Assembly (NCBI GenBank): GCA_945881915.1
Contig: CAMCVW010000001.1
Span: forward strand, 62,001-126,000
Direction: 5' to 3'
DNA from: Thermoflexus hugenholtzii JAD2
Lineage (GTDB): Bacteria; Chloroflexota; Chloroflexia; Chloroflexales; Roseiflexaceae
Length of the DNA stretch: 64,000 nt
The notes beneath the pieces are model-generated. The model worked only from the letters and a program-made list of their open reading frames with translations, made no database searches and was not told the DNA's origin. Both the position numbers and the translations under genes were made by a program. Positions 22,652 through 34,332 of this stretch are shown here, in pieces; within the stretch, counting starts at the first letter, position 1, and every line of letters begins with the position of its first letter.

Positions 22652-24199
22652 ATGCACATCAGCCTCCAAGAGACCGCCACAATTCACTTGCACGCCTCGG
22701 ACAATGTCGTCATCGCCATGGTCCCGCTCGCCGCCAATCGTGTCATCGACGCAGCGAGCAGAAAGATTACGCTGCGCCAGATGATTAGTGCAGGCCACAA
22801 AATCGCCATCGATGCAGTCCCCATCGGTGGAGCAGTGCTGCGCTACGGCCAAATCATCGGTTTCGCAACGGCTGCAATTGAAGCCGGCGACCATGTTCAC
22901 ACGCACAACTTGCATGTCGGTTCGATGCAACTCGACTACGCGGTCGGCAGCGCAATAGAAAACGTTGCACCCATCGAGAATGCTACTGCTCGTACTTTTC
23001 TGGGGTATCAGCGCCCCGACGGAAGCGTCGGTACACGCAACACCGTTGCAGTCATTGGCACCGTCAACTGCTCATCACACACACTCAAAAAAATCGTCGA
23101 ACGCGCAAAACGAGAACTCCTTCCCCAGTACCCAAATGTAACCGACATCATCGCGCTGGGTCACAAACACGGCTGTGCAACGCGAGACGGGAGTCCGGAG
23201 TTGGGCATGCTCCAGCGTACTTTGGCAGGGTTTGCCCACAATCCGAATGTGGCTGGGTATATGTTTGTGGGGCTCGGTTGTGAAACGAACCAATTCGAAG
23301 CTCTCTTTCTCGCTCATCGCACACGCTTTGGCGCTATGGCGTTACCGACGTACTTGGCAGTCCAAGACGAGGGTGGCGTCGCCAATACCATCAATGCGGG
23401 AATTTCGGCACTCGTACCCATTTTGGAACATGCAAATACGTACACACGTATTGCTGCTCCCATCAGCGCGCTTTCGCTAGCGCTCCAATGTGGTGGGAGT
23501 GATGGATTCAGCGGCATTAGTGCCAATCCAGCCCTCGGCTATGCGGTCGATCTCTTGGTTCGCCACGGCGGGACGGCAGTCCTCAGTGAGACCCCCGAGA
23601 TCTACGGGGCAGAACATCTCCTCACCCGCCGCGCAGTCTCACCCGCTGTTGCGGCCAAGCTCATTGAACGCATCCATTGGTGGGAGGAATACACCCTCCG
23701 TGAAGGTTTTGAAATTGATAACAATCCGAGTCACGGAAATAAGGCGGGCGGCCTCACCACCATCTACGAGAAATCTCTCGGGGCGGTCGCTAAAGGTGGC
23801 AGTATGCCACTCAAAGCAGTGTATGAATACGCCGAGCACATCACCGAAAAAGGGTTTGTTTACATGGACACCCCTGGGTACGACCCTGTCTCTGCGACGG
23901 GACAAGTCGCCGGTGGCTGTAATTTGTTAGCATTTACCACAGGCCGTGGCAGTGTATTCGGATTTAAACCTGTACCGAGCATAAAAATTGCCACCAATTC
24001 GACCACCTACGAACGTATGAAAAGCGACATGGACATCAATGCAGGTAGCATTGTAACCGGACACGAAACGATTGCTCAGGTCGGTCAACGTATTTTTGAT
24101 TTGCTCATTGCGGTGGCATCTGGCCAACACAGTTTGAGCGAGGCGCAGGACATCGGCGAAGAAGAATTCAATCCATGGATGCTCGGCGCAACGATGTAG
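22652..24199 (+). CDS. UxaA-family sugar-acid dehydratase (altronate/galactarate type)
   Basis: 515 residues, the full length of the fused form. The N-terminal ~95 residues are the SAF domain (with HTHNLHVG), and the rest is the UxaA/GarD catalytic domain, with GYQRPDGSVGTRN, HKHGCATRDG, GCETNQFE and GGSDGFSGISANPALG. Members dehydrate D-altronate or D-galactarate to 2-keto-3-deoxy acids in an Fe2+-dependent reaction. It begins 15 bases after the kinase gene, behind GAGG. The bi-directional hairpin at 24214 ends the transcript. The sugar-acid substrate is inferred only at family level; the dehydrogenase/isomerase cluster downstream makes a catabolic role plausible. Confidence 0.87.
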   Translation: MHISLQETATIHLHASDNVVIAMVPLAANRVIDAASRKITLRQMISAGHKIAIDAVPIGGAVLRYGQIIGFATAAIEAGDHVHTHNLHVGSMQLDYAVGSAIENVAPIENATARTFLGYQRPDGSVGTRNTVAVIGTVNCSSHTLKKIVERAKRELLPQYPNVTDIIALGHKHGCATRDGSPELGMLQRTLAGFAHNPNVAGYMFVGLGCETNQFEALFLAHRTRFGAMALPTYLAVQDEGGVANTINAGISALVPILEHANTYTRIAAPISALSLALQCGGSDGFSGISANPALGYAVDLLVRHGGTAVLSETPEIYGAEHLLTRRAVSPAVAAKLIERIHWWEEYTLREGFEIDNNPSHGNKAGGLTTIYEKSLGAVAKGGSMPLKAVYEYAEHITEKGFVYMDTPGYDPVSATGQVAGGCNLLAFTTGRGSVFGFKPVPSIKIATNSTTYERMKSDMDINAGSIVTGHETIAQVGQRIFDLLIAVASGQHSLSEAQDIGEEEFNPWMLGATM

Positions 24200-25484: not shown

Positions 25485-26645
25485 ATGAGTAAGAAAATGG
25501 GCGTCGGTCTGGTCGGCTACAAATTCATGGGCAAATCACATTCAAACGCATACCGACAGGTCAGTCACTTCTTCCCAGATTTGGCAATCGTCCCCGAGTT
25601 GACCGCCTTGTGTGGCCGTGATGAAGCAAATGTCAAGCAAGCAGCTCTGGACATGGGCTGGAACGGCTACGAAACCGATTGGAAGAAGCTCGTTACCCGC
25701 AAAGATATCGGTCTCATCGATGTCTCGACACCGGGTGATTCCCATGCCCCAATCGCCATTGCCGCAGCAGGCGAAGGAAAGCATGTGTTCTGCGAAAAAC
25801 CCCTCGCGAACACGCTCAAAGAAGCACGCGCAATGGCCGAAGCTGTCAAAAAGAATGGCGTAGTCGGCATGGTCAACTTCAATTACCGGCGCGTTCCGGC
25901 GGTACAACTCGCCAAGCGGCTCATCCAAGATGGCCGCATCGGCAAAATATACCACTGGCGCTCGGTCTATTTGCAGGACTGGATCATGGATCCCAACTTC
26001 CCGTTGGTGTGGCGCCTCCAAAAAGACATCGCCGGAGCAGGCACGCTCGGGGATCTGGGTGCGCACAGCATCGACCTGGCTCGTATGCTTGTGGGAGAAA
26101 TCACTGAAGTCACCGGCATGACCGAAACATTCATCAAAAAACGTCCACTCATGGCAGGGACGACTAGTGGACTTGGTGCCGCTGCATCCGCCGAAATGGG
26201 CGAAGTCACTGTGGATGATGCTGCCTTGTTCATGACGCGCTTCGATAATGGTGCCGTTGGCACCTTCGAGGCAACCCGTTTTGCAAATGGTCGTCGCAAC
26301 TATAATTCTTTTGAAATCAACGGGTCTAAAGGCAGTATTGTCTTCAACCTCGAACGAATGAATGAACTTCAGGTGCTGTTCAACGACGATGCAGCTGACG
26401 TCCAAGGATTCCGAACCATTTTGGTCACCGAAGGGGTACATCCGTATATGAGTTCCTGGTGGCCTGCAGGTCATATCATTGGCTGGGAACATACCTTTAC
26501 TCATGGGGTCTATGACCTGATGAATGGCATCGCCAAAAACGTATCCCCTGAACCAACTTTTGACGATGGTGTTCGATGCCAAGCCGTCCTCGACGCCATC
26601 GAAACATCCGCAAGCAGCAAAAAATGGGTCAATCCAGAATACTAA
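25485..26645 (+). CDS. Gfo/Idh/MocA-family NAD(P)-dependent oxidoreductase
   Basis: 386 residues. The N-terminal Rossmann domain starts [18 protein letters not shown], and the conserved FCEKPLA sits at the end of the nucleotide-binding part. The C-terminal alpha/beta domain binds the sugar, with [12 protein letters not shown] supplying the usual aspartate/histidine pair. Relatives oxidise or reduce sugars, inositols and sugar acids at a single carbon. AAAGGAG precedes the ATG. The next gene is a sugar isomerase 23 bases downstream, a pairing common in inositol and hexose catabolic operons. The specific sugar cannot be told. Confidence 0.9.
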
Positions 26646-26668: not shown

Positions 26669-27667
26669 ATGGCACGTCCTGTCACGCTCTTTACCGGTCA
26701 ATGGGCCGATATGCCATTGGCCGAACTGGTCGTCAAAGCAAAAGCCTTTGGCTATGATGGCCTCGAACTTGCCTGCTGGGGAGATCACTTCGAAGTAGGC
26801 AAAGCCCTCTCGGACCCCAACTACATCCCAGCCAAAAAGGCACTTCTCGAAAAACACGGCCTCAAGTGCTATGCCATCAGCAATCACTTGGTCGGCCAGG
26901 CAGTCTGCGATAACATCGATGAACGTCACAAGGCGATTGTTCCGCCGCACGTGTGGGGCGACGGTAATCCCGAGGGAGTCCGCCAGCGTGCTGCCAAAGA
27001 AATGATGGACACCGCCCGTGCTGCAGCAAAATTCGGCGTCAAAGTCGTCAATGGCTTCACCGGCTCATCCATCTGGCACCTCATTTATTCATTCCCACCC
27101 AACACGCCAGCTATGATCGACGGCGGCTATGCTGACTTCGCCAAACGCTGGAACCCCATCATCGACGTGTTCGATGAAGTCGGGGTCAAATTTGCCCTCG
27201 AAGTGCACCCCACCGAGATTGCCTATGACATCTACACCACCGAACTCGCGCTCAAGGCAATCGGTAATCGCCCTGGCTTCGGCATTAACTTCGACCCGAG
27301 CCACCTCTATCATCAGTTCATCGACTCCGTTGCGTTTGTCGAACGCTTCGCCGACCGCATCTACCATGTGCACGTGAAGGAAAGCTTCCGCAATCTGAAC
27401 GGTCAGACAAGCATCTTGGCATCCCACATCAACTTTGGCGATTCACGGCGCGGCTGGGACTTCATTTCGCCCGGTCGTGGCGAAATGGCGTGGGGACCAA
27501 TTTTCCGTGCACTCAATCGCATCAACTACGCGGGACCTTTATCTGTCGAATGGGAAGACATGAGCATGGACCGCGAGTATGGCGCCACCGATGCCTGTGC
27601 ATTCGTCCGTCGTAATGATTACACGCCATCGAATGTCCAATTCGATGCAGCATTTTCACGCGATTAA
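26669..27667 (+). CDS. TIM-barrel sugar phosphate isomerase/epimerase
   Basis: 332 residues from ATG 26669 (GAAAGGA upstream), xylose-isomerase-like TIM-barrel (AP_endonuc_2) family. Candidate metal ligands lie in [31 protein letters not shown] and LSVEWED, in the normal order along the barrel. Relatives include IolE/IolI-type inosose dehydratases/isomerases and 3-keto-sugar epimerases. It follows the Gfo/Idh/MocA dehydrogenase and probably acts on its keto product. A strong terminator stands right after the gene. Reaction type is inferred from family and partner only. Confidence 0.88.
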
Positions 27668-27711: not shown

Positions 27712-27723
27712 GCTAGGGTAACT

Positions 27724-28515
27724 ATGAGTCACACCGTGCACCAATTCGCCGGCAAAACAGCTATTGTGACTGGTATCAACCGCGAAATAGGCGCAGCAAT
27801 AGCGCTGATGTTTGTTCGCGCTGGATGCAATGTCTCTGCGACGTATCATGGTGAATCCGAGCGCGTACAACCGATTCTCGATATGGCACGAGACTTGCCG
27901 GGTGCACTCACTGTCACCGACTGTGACCTCCGCGACATCAATGTACATGAGCAACTCGTCCAGCGAACGGTTGCACGCTACGGGGCGTTGGATATGTACA
28001 TCGCAAATTCCGGGGTGACGGTCTTTGGTCCATTCGTCGATATGACGACTGCAGATTTTGATAGCGTCTTTGATCTAAACCTCAAAGGGACGTTTTTCGG
28101 CGCACAAGCAGCCGCACGCCAGATGCTCCGGCAAGGCCAGCCTGGCCGCATTGTATTTTCTTCATCCGTCACAGGGATTACTGCGATGCCCGGCGCTTCG
28201 GTCTACGGCACAAGCAAAGCAGCCCTGCGCCACCTGGCCGCCATACTGGGAGTGGAACTCGGTCGTAACGGTATCACCGTAAATGCGGTCGCAATTGGAG
28301 CAACGCTGAATGATCGTAATCTGGCAGACAATCCCAACTATGCGACACTGTGGGGGCATTTATCGCCAGTCGGTCGCGTCGGGACACCAGACGATGTCGC
28401 TCAGGCAGTTCGTTTTCTCTGCAGTGACTCAGCCCAACTCGTCAATGGCCAGACACTGACTATCGATGGAGGATGGACGCACATGAGTCCATTATCAATT
28501 GGAGATCGTTCCTGA
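27724..28515 (+). CDS. Short-chain dehydrogenase/reductase
   Basis: 263 residues from ATG 27724 (AGGG upstream). Classical SDR: cofactor loop VTGINREIGAA (TG at residues 16-17), the ANSG motif, the catalytic serine in SSSVTG, and YGTSK with the tyrosine and lysine. The C-terminal FLCSDSAQLVNGQTLTIDGG is typical of the FabG/gluconate-5-dehydrogenase group. It probably oxidises or reduces a hydroxyl or keto group on a sugar derivative, given its neighbours. Its stop overlaps the HAD gene start by one base (TGATG), so the two are translationally coupled. Confidence 0.88.
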   Translation: MSHTVHQFAGKTAIVTGINREIGAAIALMFVRAGCNVSATYHGESERVQPILDMARDLPGALTVTDCDLRDINVHEQLVQRTVARYGALDMYIANSGVTVFGPFVDMTTADFDSVFDLNLKGTFFGAQAAARQMLRQGQPGRIVFSSSVTGITAMPGASVYGTSKAALRHLAAILGVELGRNGITVNAVAIGATLNDRNLADNPNYATLWGHLSPVGRVGTPDDVAQAVRFLCSDSAQLVNGQTLTIDGGWTHMSPLSIGDRS

Positions 28516-29327
28516 TGATTGAAGTCCTGAAACGGCCCCAACGCCAGCCCATCGTTGCTGCTATCGACTTTGATGGCACACTATCCCTCGTTCGTATGGG
28601 ATGGCAGACCGTCATGCACCGGGTCATGAAGGACGCTCTTGCACCGTTGCATCCACAGCTTGATCGAATCGACGCAGAAATACACAGCTACATCGCTCGC
28701 TCGACTGGCCAACCAAGCATCGTCCAAATGGCTTGGGTGGACGAGCATGTCCATCTGTATGGAGGTCCACACCACGGTGCGCAGTATTACCTCGACCAAT
28801 TCAGTCACGCCATGAGCGACCGAATCGACGAGCGCCTCGTCAGTATGACAAACCGTACACAAGCGGATGTCCACATGATTCGAGGAGCACGCGCTTTTCT
28901 TGAGCACTTGGCAACGCGTGGCGTACATATGGCACTCGTAAGTGGGACCGAATATCATCACTTGGTACGCGAGAGTACTGCACTCGGAATTATCGAATTC
29001 TTCGACGCCGGTATTTTTGGCCCAGGAGGGCATGCGCCGGGCTTCACGAAAGCCGAAGCACTGGCGAGCTTGGTCGAACGGTATGCACTGCTCCCCGGTC
29101 AACTCGTGTCGATAGGCGATGGTCCGGTCGAAATTTCTGCCGGCAGATCGCTCGACGCCTACTGCATTGCGGTTGCATCCGATGAAGCATCTGGCGAATT
29201 GGATAGTCACAAACGTGTCCACCTTGTGCATGCCGGTGCGGACGCGGTCATTGCTAATTTCTTGCCGCTCGACTCACTCACTGCACTTCTATTCGATCGG
29301 GATTCAGATGCGCCATCCTCGATTTAA
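28515..29327 (+). CDS. HAD-superfamily phosphatase
   Basis: 270 residues from ATG 28515, overlapping the SDR stop. Motif I is AAIDFDGTL (nucleophile and acid/base aspartates), motif II SGTEYHH, the lysine is in PGFTKAEAL, and motif III is SIGDGPVEI. The ~100-residue insert between motif I and II is a helical cap. It likely removes phosphate from a sugar phosphate. It overlaps the next gene by 20 bases, a strong sign of a single functional unit with the deoxyhypusine-synthase-like protein and the kinase. The substrate is unknown. Confidence 0.83.
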   Translation: MIEVLKRPQRQPIVAAIDFDGTLSLVRMGWQTVMHRVMKDALAPLHPQLDRIDAEIHSYIARSTGQPSIVQMAWVDEHVHLYGGPHHGAQYYLDQFSHAMSDRIDERLVSMTNRTQADVHMIRGARAFLEHLATRGVHMALVSGTEYHHLVRESTALGIIEFFDAGIFGPGGHAPGFTKAEALASLVERYALLPGQLVSIGDGPVEISAGRSLDAYCIAVASDEASGELDSHKRVHLVHAGADAVIANFLPLDSLTALLFDRDSDAPSSI

Positions 29328-30276
29328 CCGACAGCTCCTGCGCGTGCTCCCTCTCGCCGATCGCATCCACGACATGCAGCGTAGCGATGTTCTACCGCTC
29401 GAGCCACAGCATCAGCCGTTCCCATCAACGGCGCTCGATGCACTCGTCCCAGCAATCACCGCCGCACGCGCGACCGACAAACCCGTCATTATCATCATGG
29501 GTGCGCACGTCATCAAACAAGGAACGTCGCGCTACATCATCGATTTGATGGAACGTGGCCTCGTTACCCATATCGCTCTCAATGGTGCAGGACTCATCCA
29601 TGACTATGAGCTGGCTTTGATTGGTGCCACGACCGAAAGCGTCGCGGCCTACATCTCGCAAGGGCAATTTGGCTTGTGGACCGAGACCGGCGTCATAAAC
29701 GATCACATCCACAGCGCTACATCTCGAGACATGGGGATCGGCGAATATCTGGGAAGTGTCATTGACTCGCCAATGTTTCCGTACCGTGAACTCTCAATTG
29801 TGGCCGCAGGACATCGTCTCGGTATTCCGGTGACGGTCCACGTGAGCATCGGCCAAGACATCATCCATGAGCATCCCAATTGCGACGGCGCGTCGCTCGG
29901 AGCTGCGTCCTACACCGATTTTCTGATTTTTACACACAGTGTCAGCCAGCTCGAAGGCGGTGTGATGCTCAACATCGGCAGTGCGGTAATGGGACCAGAA
30001 GTCTACCTCAAAGCACTCGCCATGGCGCGCAATGTTGCACATCAAAACGACCAACACATCGCACACTTCACCACCGCGGTGTTTGACATGGTGACGCTGC
30101 CGGACGATGTGCGAACGGAAGTACCCAAGAGCGAACCAGCGTATTATTACCGGCCGTTCAAAACCATTCTGGTGCGCACGGTGCGCGACGGTGGTACGAG
30201 TATGTATGTCTGTGGCGACCACCGCCAGACCATCCCCGCCCTCTGGCAAGGATTATGTCACCCCGATATTGAATGA
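29308..30276 (+). CDS. Deoxyhypusine-synthase-like protein of unknown function
   Basis: 322 residues from ATG 29308, inside the end of the HAD gene. It contains IIIMGAHVIKQGTSRYI, HIALNGAGLIHDYELALIG and a PVTVHVSIGQDIIHEHP segment, which I read as the NAD-binding deoxyhypusine-synthase-like fold. True deoxyhypusine synthase modifies eIF5A in archaea and eukaryotes, which bacteria lack; bacterial relatives often use putrescine or are uncharacterised. The genes on each side are a HAD phosphatase and an HldE-type kinase, suggesting that it acts on a phosphorylated or nucleotide-activated sugar. Function is not established; fold assignment is moderately sure. Confidence 0.65.
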   Translation: MRHPRFNRQLLRVLPLADRIHDMQRSDVLPLEPQHQPFPSTALDALVPAITAARATDKPVIIIMGAHVIKQGTSRYIIDLMERGLVTHIALNGAGLIHDYELALIGATTESVAAYISQGQFGLWTETGVINDHIHSATSRDMGIGEYLGSVIDSPMFPYRELSIVAAGHRLGIPVTVHVSIGQDIIHEHPNCDGASLGAASYTDFLIFTHSVSQLEGGVMLNIGSAVMGPEVYLKALAMARNVAHQNDQHIAHFTTAVFDMVTLPDDVRTEVPKSEPAYYYRPFKTILVRTVRDGGTSMYVCGDHRQTIPALWQGLCHPDIE

Positions 30277-30283
30277 GGCTCCC

Positions 30284-31309
30284 ATGCAGGCAGCACGTCT
30301 TGCCCAAATTACCAGTGCGTTCGCAGGCAAACGCATCGCCGTCTGCGGCGACTTCTTCCTCGATCGGTATCTGTGGATTGATCCCGCACGTGCCGAAATT
30401 TCGGTCGAGACCGGCCATATCGCCCACCAAGTCATTCAGCAGACCGCTGCTCCTGGCGCTGCAGGAACGGTCGCTGCCAACCTCGCAGCACTCGGCGCAC
30501 ACGTCGTCTGCCTCGGAGTGGTCGGCGATGACGGGGACGGGTACACGTTGCGCAGTGGACTCCATGTACTCGGTGTCGACGACAGTCTGATGATTACCAC
30601 TCCAGATCGACCAACGCCTACCTACACAAAGCCAGTGATACGACAGTCAGACGGAACAGTTCGCGAACTCAAGCGCCTCGACATCCGCAGTCGCGATGCA
30701 TTGCCGACCGCCTATCGGGCACAATTCATCGATCACCTCGAGACGCTTGCCCACCACATCGATGCCATCGTCTTTGCGGACCAAATGCCCGAGGCGCAGG
30801 CGGGAATCATTGATGAAACTGTTCAGCGTGCAATTACACGCATCGCGCAGGAACACCCAGGTCTTCCCATGTTTGCCGATTCACGGGCACGGATTGACCG
30901 TTTTCATGGCGTGGTGATCAAGCCGAATCTCCACGAAGCATACAGCGCACTCGGCCGTGTGCCCAAACCCGAAGATGATTTCAACAACATCGCCGCTGAA
31001 CTTGCTACACGTACACAGTATCCGGTAGTCATGACACTCGCAGGGGATGGCGTCATTGTCTCTGAACAAGGAATCACCCAGCACATCCCGGGCATCCCCG
31101 TTGATTCCCCCATCGACGTTGTCGGTGCTGGTGACAGCGTCATGGCAGCCCTGGCGATTGCCCGTGCTGCAGGCGCAAACCTCGTCGAAGCCGCCGAGAT
31201 TGCCATGTACGTCGCTGCCGTGACCATCCGCAAATTGGGCACCACCGGGACAGCGACCCCAGCGGAACTCACGACGATTGCCCTACACTACAGTCGCCTG
31301 CAAACGTAA
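30284..31309 (+). CDS. PfkB-family kinase resembling heptose-7-phosphate kinase (HldE/RfaE1)
   Basis: 341 residues from ATG 30284, 7 bases after the preceding gene. Ribokinase fold: the start RIAVCGDFFLDRYLWID, the GAAGTVAANLAALGA motif, TYTKPVIRQSDG with ELKRLD as in HldE kinase domains, VIKPNLHEA, and VVGAGDSVMAAL with the catalytic aspartate. There is no nucleotidyltransferase domain and no gmhA or gmhB in the window, so a lipopolysaccharide heptose pathway is not shown; the organism may lack lipopolysaccharide. It more likely phosphorylates another sugar in this operon. A terminator hairpin follows. Confidence 0.8.
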   Translation: MQAARLAQITSAFAGKRIAVCGDFFLDRYLWIDPARAEISVETGHIAHQVIQQTAAPGAAGTVAANLAALGAHVVCLGVVGDDGDGYTLRSGLHVLGVDDSLMITTPDRPTPTYTKPVIRQSDGTVRELKRLDIRSRDALPTAYRAQFIDHLETLAHHIDAIVFADQMPEAQAGIIDETVQRAITRIAQEHPGLPMFADSRARIDRFHGVVIKPNLHEAYSALGRVPKPEDDFNNIAAELATRTQYPVVMTLAGDGVIVSEQGITQHIPGIPVDSPIDVVGAGDSVMAALAIARAAGANLVEAAEIAMYVAAVTIRKLGTTGTATPAELTTIALHYSRLQT

Positions 31310-32788: not shown

Positions 32789-33154
32789 CTAGACATGTGG
32801 AATATCGTCGACGCTATAAAAGATCCGCTTTCCCATTTCTTGTGCTTTCGCCATCTCAAGATCAGCACCCCGAGATTGTCCCGGGTTGCGTAATACTGCA
32901 TCGCATTTTTCGAGAAGCCGGTGTGCAACCGGATATTGATAGGTACGCAATTGTTCCGATGCATGCGAATCGCCACCTGCTTGGCGGATAACAGGCCACG
33001 CAAGCCACTCCCCAACAACCGCAATATGCCCCTTCTCGAAAATCGGGAGCGCATATGATTCCATTTTTTTGAGATTCTTCTCGATTGCCGCCTCGTCACC
33101 ATCTGTCCCCGACATATACGGACCCGAGATGAGAATCATGAGCGTATCCCGCAT
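32789..33154 (-). CDS. DUF4406 (nucleoside 2-deoxyribosyltransferase-like) protein
   Basis: 121 residues from ATG 33154; ATG 33136, giving the typical MILISGPYMSGT start with GGGA upstream, is equally possible. The ISGPYMSG motif, the following helix with EKNLKKMES, and the D-A-V-L-R-NPG-S-GADLEMAKA segment match DUF4406, which resembles nucleoside deoxyribosyltransferases (the loop GxS-x2-D-x-E-x2-A). The expected catalytic glutamate is in ADLEMA. The family is common in phage and in small genomic islands. It lies next to ssrA, a usual integration site, but no integrase or attachment-site duplication is visible. Confidence 0.72.
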   Translation of the reverse strand: MRDTLMILISGPYMSGTDGDEAAIEKNLKKMESYALPIFEKGHIAVVGEWLAWPVIRQAGGDSHASEQLRTYQYPVAHRLLEKCDAVLRNPGQSRGADLEMAKAQEMGKRIFYSVDDIPHV

Positions 33155-33305
33155 GCCGTGGTATTCTTTCTGCTCTGTTTCAAACCGAGCATCGTACCAG
33201 ACGAGACTCAATTCAGTTTATATGCAATAAATCGCCCTGGCATGCAACGTCCTGCTCCCTAAAACGCACGTCAACAACAGGCAACATGGTAATTGAATAA
33301 CAGTA

Positions 33306-33334
33306 TTGCGTATAAGTGTTTTTTATGGTATTCT
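33306..33334 (+). promoter_or_regulatory. Promoter of ADP-ribosylglycohydrolase gene
   Basis: TTGCGT (33306-33311), a 17-base spacer and TATTCT (33329-33334). It lies about 30 bases before the ATG, so the leader is short and contains GAGGAG. Confidence 0.6.
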
Positions 33335-33366
33335 GCACACATTGGAAGCGCACAGAGGAGACCTAC

Positions 33367-34332
33367 ATGCAAAACCATCAGCACGTCAACACCGCATTAT
33401 CGCGCGCAGAAGGGTGCTTGCTTGGACAAATCGCCGGTGATTCGCTGGGGAGTCTCGTCGAATTTCAATCACTACAGAGTATCCTCCGCAAGTACCCAAA
33501 CGGCGTCACAGAACTCGCTGACGGCGGAACACACAGCACGATCTCTGGACAACCGACTGACGATTCAGAACTCGCACTCATGCTGGCTCGTTCGCTGGTG
33601 GCCGAGGGTACGTATAATCGTGACATTGTTTTTCAATCGTATGTCTATTGGTTGCGTTCTGGCCCATTTGATTGCGGAACTGCAACGAGGACTGGGCTGA
33701 CCGGTAAGCCATTAGCGGACACACAAGCAAACGGTGCTTTGATGCGCATTAGTCCATTGGGCATCTTCGGGACACAGTATCCTGCCGAAACCGTCGCAGC
33801 ATGGGCTGAACTCGACGCAGCAATGACGCACCCGCATCAGGTTACGCGTTCGGCGAGTGCATTATTTGCATTGGCGATTGCCCATGTCATCAAAACTGGC
33901 TGCAGCGCGCAGGCACTCTATGAATATATCGTGCAACATGCTGAAAAAAGGAATGATCCCCAAGCCCTCCGTGATGTCATATCAATTGCTGCCACGCAGC
34001 GACCCGCTACATATGTCCATCAACAAGGATGGGTGATGATTGCCTTCCAAAACGCCTTGTGGCAGCTTTTGCACGCCGAGTCATTCCGGGCTGGAGTCCA
34101 AGATACCGTCATGCAAGGCGGCGACACTGACACCAACGCAGCAATCTGTGGCGCGCTCCTCGGTGCAGTATATGGTCGTGAAGCAGTTCCGCAGACATGG
34201 GTTGAAGCAGTGTTGAACTGTCGCCCTCGCAGAGAAAATCCAGCATGTGTTCATCCGCGCCCAGAAGTATTCTGGCCTGTCGATGCACTCGATCTCGCCG
34301 CTCAGTTGCTTGGCCAGACATCTGAGGTGTAA
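33367..34332 (+). CDS. ADP-ribosylglycohydrolase family protein
   Basis: 321 residues, ATG 33367 behind GAGGAG; the upstream frame is rejected. Metal-site motifs are complete: QIAGDSLGSLVEF, QPTDDSELALM, NGALMRISPLG and GGDTDTNAAICGALLGAVYG. These aspartates and threonine hold two Mg2+ or Mn2+ ions. Members remove ADP-ribose from arginine (DraG type), from thymidine or from other targets, or cleave related substrates such as O-acetyl-ADP-ribose. No cognate ADP-ribosyltransferase is in the window, so the target is not known. Confidence 0.88.
   Translation: MQNHQHVNTALSRAEGCLLGQIAGDSLGSLVEFQSLQSILRKYPNGVTELADGGTHSTISGQPTDDSELALMLARSLVAEGTYNRDIVFQSYVYWLRSGPFDCGTATRTGLTGKPLADTQANGALMRISPLGIFGTQYPAETVAAWAELDAAMTHPHQVTRSASALFALAIAHVIKTGCSAQALYEYIVQHAEKRNDPQALRDVISIAATQRPATYVHQQGWVMIAFQNALWQLLHAESFRAGVQDTVMQGGDTDTNAAICGALLGAVYGREAVPQTWVEAVLNCRPRRENPACVHPRPEVFWPVDALDLAAQLLGQTSEV

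Follow-up and report, generated by a model that had tools for sequence, protein, structure and literature searches.

A recurrent gene trio in a Chloroflexota genome joins a GSU2086-family protein of predicted deoxyhypusine-synthase fold to a HldA-like kinase and a HAD phosphatase

Results

A compact trio around a GSU2086-family gene

The window analysed here is a stretch of 64,000 nucleotides from the Chloroflexota bacterium Thermoflexus hugenholtzii JAD2 (assembly GCA_945881915.1, contig CAMCVW010000001.1, positions 62,001 to 126,000), and our subject is a trio of tightly packed + strand genes within it whose middle member resembles deoxyhypusine synthase (DHS). The first gene encodes a HAD-superfamily phosphatase of 270 amino acids (28515..29327, with its ATG at 28515 and its TAA at 29325-29327; PF00702, E = 1.6e-10), the second the DHS-like protein of 322 amino acids (29308..30276, with its ATG at 29308 and a TGA ending at 30276; NF052581, E = 5e-115), and the third a PfkB-family sugar kinase of 341 amino acids (30284..31309, with its ATG at 30284 and its TAA at 31307-31309; PF00294, E = 2.3e-30). 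All three reading frames are intact. The HAD and DHS-like genes overlap by 20 bases and the kinase gene follows after a gap of 7, exactly the packing that an initial annotation of this DNA had described, and relatives that open with 'MPYPxFDRS..' at the same position back the start codon of the DHS-like gene. The middle protein is a full-length member of the GSU2086 family. It matches NF052581 at 384.2 bits against a cut-off of 250, over positions 2-300 of a 301-position profile, and this is the sole NCBIfam model that it matches; the family is already catalogued under that model, with no function assigned to it.

The trio recurs widely. We surveyed 80 loci of the closest relatives (the best 80 of 198 found, a sample that leans towards the window's own clade), counting partners on the same strand with the kinase start at most 500 bases downstream and the HAD end at most 500 bases upstream of the GSU2086 gene. 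A kinase lies directly downstream in 63/80 loci (60/77 with contig room), a HAD gene directly upstream in 49/80 (48/78 with contig room), and both flank the gene in 47/80 (43/75 with room both ways). By phylum, the full trio is found at 18/26 Chloroflexota, 14/16 Acidobacteriota, 6/7 Armatimonadota, 4/18 Planctomycetota and 1/5 Bacillota loci. The remaining loci come from other phyla. The arrangement is beyond chance, and recurrence in other genomes, which the initial annotation had named as a check, is what we observed, across several phyla: the trio is real, recurrent and underexplained.

The family itself is unevenly spread. It is found above cut-off in 5/201 Chloroflexota genomes, none of them among the listed genomes of the same order; 55 further Chloroflexota genomes carry weaker matches, mostly longer reading frames that cover one part of the profile, which we read as probable ArgZ-like proteins. 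Prevalence is 144/294 genomes in Planctomycetota, 95/297 in Acidobacteriota, 14/14 in the phylum of genome G202 and 1/294 in the archaeal phylum of locus L063. A family this common in Planctomycetota, Acidobacteriota and G202's group still has no assigned reaction. In one branch of G202's phylum (L140-L144, L148-L151) the profile matches span ~1,070 bases rather than 900, with an insert of ~55 amino acids; this branch has no trio neighbours and up to two family copies per genome.

For comparisons within the family we used a reference alignment, A1, that draws on 67 of the 80 loci. It omits near-copies (L005 and L009), sequences with long inserts (L037, L041 and L069) and stretches in which a stop is read (L056 and L068), and L030, L058, L060, L070, L072 and L078 also lie outside it. 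Sequences scoring below 300 bits against A1 were assigned to clade B and the rest to clade A, which includes the window protein, and a family tree that divides the two at a single, weakly supported branch (73) is for that reason a consistency check only. Clade B comprises 73 of the 81 loci L131-L151 and L169-L228, from Planctomycetota, Acidobacteriota and G202's group.

Fold and kinship of the middle protein

Pfam gives the window protein only a sub-threshold match to PF21570, the ArgZ-like C-terminal Rossmann domain (16.4 bits against a gathering score of 27). Weak PF21570 matches recur in 68/68 family members, and weak matches to the DHS family PF01916 in 21/68 (best E 7e-4). An AlphaFold2 model of the protein (predicted local distance difference test 92.1, predicted template-modelling score 0.92) has DHS and ArgZ/AgrE as its top Foldseek rows. 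Its VIA Z scores are 19.7 against AgrE (6lrf; root-mean-square deviation 3.3 over 219 residues), 19.4 against the AgrE/ornithine/NAD+ complex (6lrg), 19.6 and 19.2 against archaeal DHS (8put and 7cmc) and 18.0 against human DHS with NAD (1dhs). Among the best rows, scores against solved DHS chains range from 18.0 to 19.6, with 242-267 residues aligned and coverage from residue 18 or 33 to residue 321. The DHS fold claimed in the initial annotation, which had suggested structure prediction as a check, is thus recovered by the model, and the middle protein is predicted to adopt the deoxyhypusine-synthase/ornithine-cyclodeaminase fold.

Judged by sequence, its strongest kinship is with the ArgZ/AgrE-type ornithine cyclodeaminase domain. 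Searched against the PDB, the family profile finds AgrE/ArgZ at positions 43-108 (E 0.008-0.012), with a weak further match to the LOR/SDH protein of Methanococcus (3c2q); plain phmmer with the single protein found no match there. In hhalign the family aligns with Chloroflexota ArgZ-like proteins at 95% over the strand-helix that carries the NGAGxxHDxE motif, and with the window genome's single DHS over only 26 columns (6%). The window protein is like the C-terminal ornithine cyclodeaminase domain of AgrE/ArgZ and MMP1218 (PF21570; 6lrf, 6lrg, 6juy and 3c2q) in fold (VIA Z 18.6-19.7) and shares its GNAxxxHDxE-type motif; unlike those proteins, it lacks the 'TKLxDRG' lysine and has neither an arginine dihydrolase nor a LOR/SDH domain at its N-terminus. 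Its version of the motif reads N92-G-A-G-x-I-H98-D99-x-E101. As the titles of 6lrg and 1dhs name NAD(+) and the motif is conserved, the GSU2086 protein is predicted, from fold and motif, to bind NAD.

Conserved residues and the missing lysine

The window protein has no match to PF01916 at E<=1. The same search of the window genome returns a single protein, on another contig (G000:C17:16609-17502), which keeps the 'WGK' motif. When the sequences are aligned jointly, the window protein's T291 coincides with, or directly neighbours, the lysine of the 'TKLxDRG' motif of ArgZ-like proteins. The active-site lysine of DHS (K329 in the human enzyme) is absent at the equivalent position, placed at T291 by reading the motif 'RPxxxxxxxK' against R282-P283...T291 and by the ArgZ-like sequences, not by structural superposition; the C-terminus of the genome's DHS is poorly placed in the joint MAFFT alignment around this region. 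By this placement, the lysine that the initial annotation had asked after is not there. Alike in fold to DHS (PF01916; 1dhs, 7cmc, 8put), the window protein differs in lacking the 'WGK' lysine and in lying in a sugar-kinase neighbourhood. We rule out a true DHS on three counts: no PF01916 match, no active-site lysine, and a separate PF01916 gene in the genome. That separate 'WGK' protein also puts beside the point the earlier argument that a DHS has no obvious target in a bacterium. The genome's PF01916 gene, of deoxyhypusine/homospermidine-synthase type (locus L001, ORF 1378-2505), adjoins a likely methylthioribose-1-phosphate isomerase gene.

A polar core is common to both clades (H67, N92, H98, D99, E101, E110, T127, H178, D184, H189, D204, K235, N242, D260 and R282), each residue being kept in at least 69/73 clade-B sequences; R290 and H305 are kept in 64/73. 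K285, six residues upstream of T291, is invariant in clade A only.

These positions bear on the possibility of an amine-based reaction, a redox-neutral swap of hydroxyl for amine on a sugar phosphate that would yield an amino-heptose. DHS and ornithine cyclodeaminase use NAD+ without net redox and handle amines, as the structure titles of both characterised relatives and their known mechanism indicate, and to our knowledge the fold is known only for amine chemistry. Set against this, the lysine of the DHS 'WGK' and ArgZ-like 'TKL' motifs is replaced by T in 68/68 clade-A and by P in 63/73 clade-B sequences, and the conserved residues around the lost lysine are basic (R282, R290) rather than acidic; in DHS, acidic residues bind the polyamine. 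We regard an amine-based reaction as very unlikely. Loss of the lysine together with the gain of conserved basic residues suggests instead an anionic, non-amine substrate.

Partner kinase, phosphatase and isomerase

The trio kinase is nearest to the kinase domain of HldA/HldE (TIGR02198, 4e84). The heptose-7-phosphate kinase HldA (4e84, 1.9e-29) is the one solved structure related to it at E<=1e-20, and its best NCBIfam model is TIGR02198 (rfaE domain I; 6.8e-50, 170 bits, under the equivalog cut-off of 345). It has no adenylyltransferase domain. The trio HAD protein retains its catalytic motifs as invariant columns among 45 sequences (D18xD20G, S143-G144-T145, K179 and G201-D202...E206), but it falls into no specific family, and a profile search against solved structures returned generic HAD phosphatases only, with no hint of substrate. 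The GmhB models TIGR00213 and NF006506 are not among the NCBIfam matches of the window HAD, which is not of the GmhB type (HAD-IIIA).

A third partner is linked in some genomes. In 9/80 loci a GmhA-like SIS isomerase gene is found on the strand of the trio and no more than 5 kb away. SIS proteins encoded next to the trio match TIGR00441 at 3e-34 and 6e-31, below cut-off. The SIS gene immediately follows the kinase gene in L164 and on plasmid CP069395, and the closest relative of these two SIS proteins in the window genome (46% and 44% identity) is encoded on contig C20 (L314 5186-6515) and adjoins a gene for a GT2 polyprenyl-phosphate-type glycosyltransferase. Genes of the same GT2 family adjoin GSU2086 genes or lie close to them in L165/L083, L044 and L190/L235, and the position of the SIS relative next to a member of this trio-associated family points to glycosylation. 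HldE adenylyltransferase gave no match in the window genome or in genome G168, and only a weak one in G136. The initial annotation had envisaged a new NAD-dependent chemistry on a sugar or sugar phosphate; the sugar-phosphate context is supported, and the NAD dependence stands as a prediction from fold and motif.

A sister clade beside heptose and lipid A genes

We compared the neighbours of clade-B copies in stretches of ~1.5 kb a side. The gene lpxK stands beside 17 Planctomycetota copies (its family was checked on one representative), and 16 clade-B copies have a neighbour that encodes a SIS protein, a HldE-type kinase or an adenylyltransferase. With lpxK and acyltransferases included, 31/73 clade-B loci have a heptose or lipid A neighbour: 23/25 in Planctomycetota, 8/30 in Acidobacteriota and 0/18 in G202's group.

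Several loci bring full sets of such genes together around the family gene. L063, an archaeal record whose GSU2086 copy scores with clade A, reads fructose-6-phosphate aldolase/transaldolase-family gene, gmhB, GSU2086, adenylyltransferase, hldE-like and gmhA-like. The order is lpxK, GSU2086, one small gene, hldE and gmhB in L233; GSU2086, hldE and gmhA in L234; and gmhB, GSU2086, hldE and gmhA in L271. The gmhB gene is a true one both in L063, where it adjoins GSU2086, and in L233, where it lies close by. In L239 gmhA precedes GSU2086, with a Kdo transferase gene past two further genes, and plasmid NZ_CP026539 carries an hldE-like gene, GSU2086 and SIS. GSU2086 as a stand-in for GmhA, GmhB or HldE is ruled out for clade B, as all three occur beside it.

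The gene that names the family shows the same setting. In Geobacter sulfurreducens, GSU2086 is located between hldE and gmhA, and transposon sequencing gave electrode-growth defects of -3.1 for hldE, -3.2 for GSU2086 and -3.7 for gmhA (PMC5585712). Polar effects inside the Geobacter operon are a possible cause of such similar defects. The Geobacter gene has a two-domain HldE and no trio-type HAD beside it, unlike the window's clade with its HAD and PfkB partners. The association is wider than the trio, which is one form of it: the sister clade keeps company with gmhA, hldE, gmhB and lpxK without the trio HAD.

Mutual exclusion with HldD

With GmhA, kinase, GmhB and adenylyltransferase all present in clade-B operons, the slot left open is that of the C6 epimerase, the role of HldD. 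We surveyed 80 consecutive Acidobacteriota genomes (G630-G709), pooling family copies of clades A and B. The GSU2086 family is present in 28/80 (one copy, in G652, is partial) and HldD (TIGR02197, all over cut-off) in 23/80. No genome of the 80 has both, where ~8 would be expected (Fisher p 5.7e-6, ignoring phylogeny), and the exclusion holds within the 67 adenylyltransferase-bearing genomes (Fisher p 1.8e-7, likewise ignoring phylogeny). The HldE adenylyltransferase domain occurs in 27/28 family-positive, 23/23 HldD-positive and 17/29 other genomes. Gene order agrees: hldD adjoins hldE or gmhA in the HldD-positive loci L274, L283, L286, L289 and L291, and GSU2086 holds that slot in L271.

The same pattern could arise if GSU2086 in the lipopolysaccharide (LPS) clade were a lineage-bound accessory making some other heptose (a deoxy form or a different epimer), with HldD absent for unrelated lineage reasons. 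The exclusion statistic ignores phylogeny, and 17/29 genomes with neither gene keep the adenylyltransferase, which makes loss of HldD possible without GSU2086. On a poorly resolved tree built from 112 columns of 67 adenylyltransferase domains, the GSU2086 and HldD labels are clustered; they switch at least 6 times, alternating among close relatives, and this tells against an accessory, as does the epimerase slot left open where gmhA, hldE and gmhB all lie beside GSU2086. We think a lineage-bound accessory distinctly unlikely.

Proposed function of the GSU2086 protein

The open epimerase slot leads us to propose epimerisation through a ketone intermediate. The chances seem to us about even that the GSU2086 protein is an NAD+-dependent, redox-neutral enzyme that acts in an epimerase-like manner on a heptose-type sugar phosphate and stands in for HldD in the LPS clade. 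Having kept the NAD site and lost the amine-handling lysine, such an enzyme would use NAD+ to oxidise a carbinol to a ketone; at the ketone stage a stereocentre or neighbouring group would change, and the hydride would then be returned, for no net redox and an epimerisation at the level of the heptose phosphate. In the LPS clade it would replace the heptose 6-epimerase HldD. The likeness to HldD (TIGR02197) is one of proposed role and genomic slot only: the two have no sequence similarity, TIGR02197 is absent from the NCBIfam matches of the window protein, and HldD is an SDR enzyme of unrelated fold.

In the window's clade, the HldA-like kinase would phosphorylate C1 and the HAD protein would take off the remaining phosphate, in the manner of GmhB. 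A GmhA-like isomerase, its gene linked to the trio in some genomes but not in this one, would take part, and a HldE-type adenylyltransferase would not. Because the trio is found without an adenylyltransferase, a sugar phosphate is a likelier substrate than ADP-heptose. What we infer, then, extends to NAD binding, the substrate, the reaction and the carry-over from the LPS clade to the window's clade. The fullest account, in which the DHS-fold enzyme is an NAD+-dependent heptose epimerase that replaces HldD in a large part of the Planctomycetota and Acidobacteriota and in Geobacter-type bacteria, and the window trio is a second version that makes a heptose or heptose-like 1-phosphate without HldE adenylyltransferase, is one that we put forward tentatively and with some doubt.

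If true, this account would bring sugar chemistry for the first time to a fold that handles amines, and it would give the Chloroflexota trio of the window a substrate class open to testing; if the family is the missing heptose epimerase, it would account for the completion of LPS heptose in many bacteria that lack HldD. Within the open-licence literature, to which our searches were confined, we found the heptose/HldD reading of GSU2086 nowhere in print and nothing that joins DHS with heptose, or hldD with Acidobacteriota heptose; on DHS with an LPS operon or sugar-kinase cluster, the titles, abstract openings and passages available gave only items that look unrelated.

Genomic setting and a catabolic alternative

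The setting of the trio in the window opens a different possibility. Upstream lie an altronate/galactarate-dehydratase-like gene (22652-24199; TIGR03248, 397 bits against a cut-off of 731), a + strand Gfo/Idh/MocA dehydrogenase gene, levoglucosan dehydrogenase-like (25485..26645; NF052479, 3.7e-130, 434 bits against a cut-off of 650), a + strand gene for a xylose-isomerase-like TIM barrel protein (26672..27667), with the same arrangement at 8 related loci, and a + strand SDR dehydrogenase gene (27721..28515). The SDR stop (TGA 28513-28515) shares one base with the HAD ATG, and the HAD gene appears from this overlap to be translationally coupled to it. The overlap places the trio at the 3' end of a longer operon, to which the SDR gene probably belongs, and the order Gfo/Idh, TIM barrel, trio is kept at loci of the window's nearest relatives, which indicates that the trio closes a longer operon in this lineage. 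In two other Chloroflexota (CP069395 and L164) we found a cassette in the order ABC sugar importer, Gfo/Idh, HAD, GSU2086, PfkB and SIS.

The trio might accordingly belong to a catabolic or salvage module, in which an imported sugar would be oxidised by Gfo/Idh, reshaped by the DHS-fold protein, phosphorylated by PfkB, partly dephosphorylated by HAD and passed into central metabolism, the heptose link being confined to the other clade. Both settings just described speak for it, as do a Gfo/Idh cluster within ~6.5 kb in 18/80 loci and the lack of an adenylyltransferase match in the window genome. A kinase and a phosphatase acting on one sugar would be unusual in such a module and are usual for the 7-phosphate to 1,7-bisphosphate to 1-phosphate route; the kinase is nearest to HldA and the isomerase to GmhA; and the window genome's SIS relative adjoins a GT2 gene from a family with members next to the trio, or not far from it, in L165 and L044. 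We rate catabolism as somewhat unlikely, and as a serious rival all the same, the role of the protein being less sure in the window's clade than in the LPS clade.

Several findings weigh against the heptose-epimerase proposal. The trio follows a sugar-oxidation operon in the window and a sugar importer in two other genomes, settings that fit catabolism better than LPS. With no adenylyltransferase match in the window genome, the product could not be ADP-heptose by the known route, and the clade-B reading may fail to carry over to the window's clade. The clades differ near the presumed substrate site, clade B having T for K285 in 36/73 sequences, N for T286 in 64 and P for T291 in 63. Within clade B, 42/73 loci lack any tested heptose or lipid A gene in the short stretches, and most family copies stand alone in the sample from G202's phylum. 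A phylogeny-aware independent-pairs test of the exclusion from HldD, with 6 usable pairs, is not significant (median p 0.5), though it at no time points the opposite way. We also know of no biochemistry for any member of the GSU2086 family.

Other features

The whole importer cassette of CP069395.1 (103967-118938, L168) is carried on a 180-kb Chloroflexota plasmid, and such carriage may explain its patchy spread. Downstream of the trio, the window holds an ADP-ribosylglycohydrolase-family gene (33316-34332; PF03747, 1.4e-57) and, isolated on the - strand in a gene-poor stretch (32789-33211), a gene for a small protein with weak similarity to DUF4406/DUF7768.

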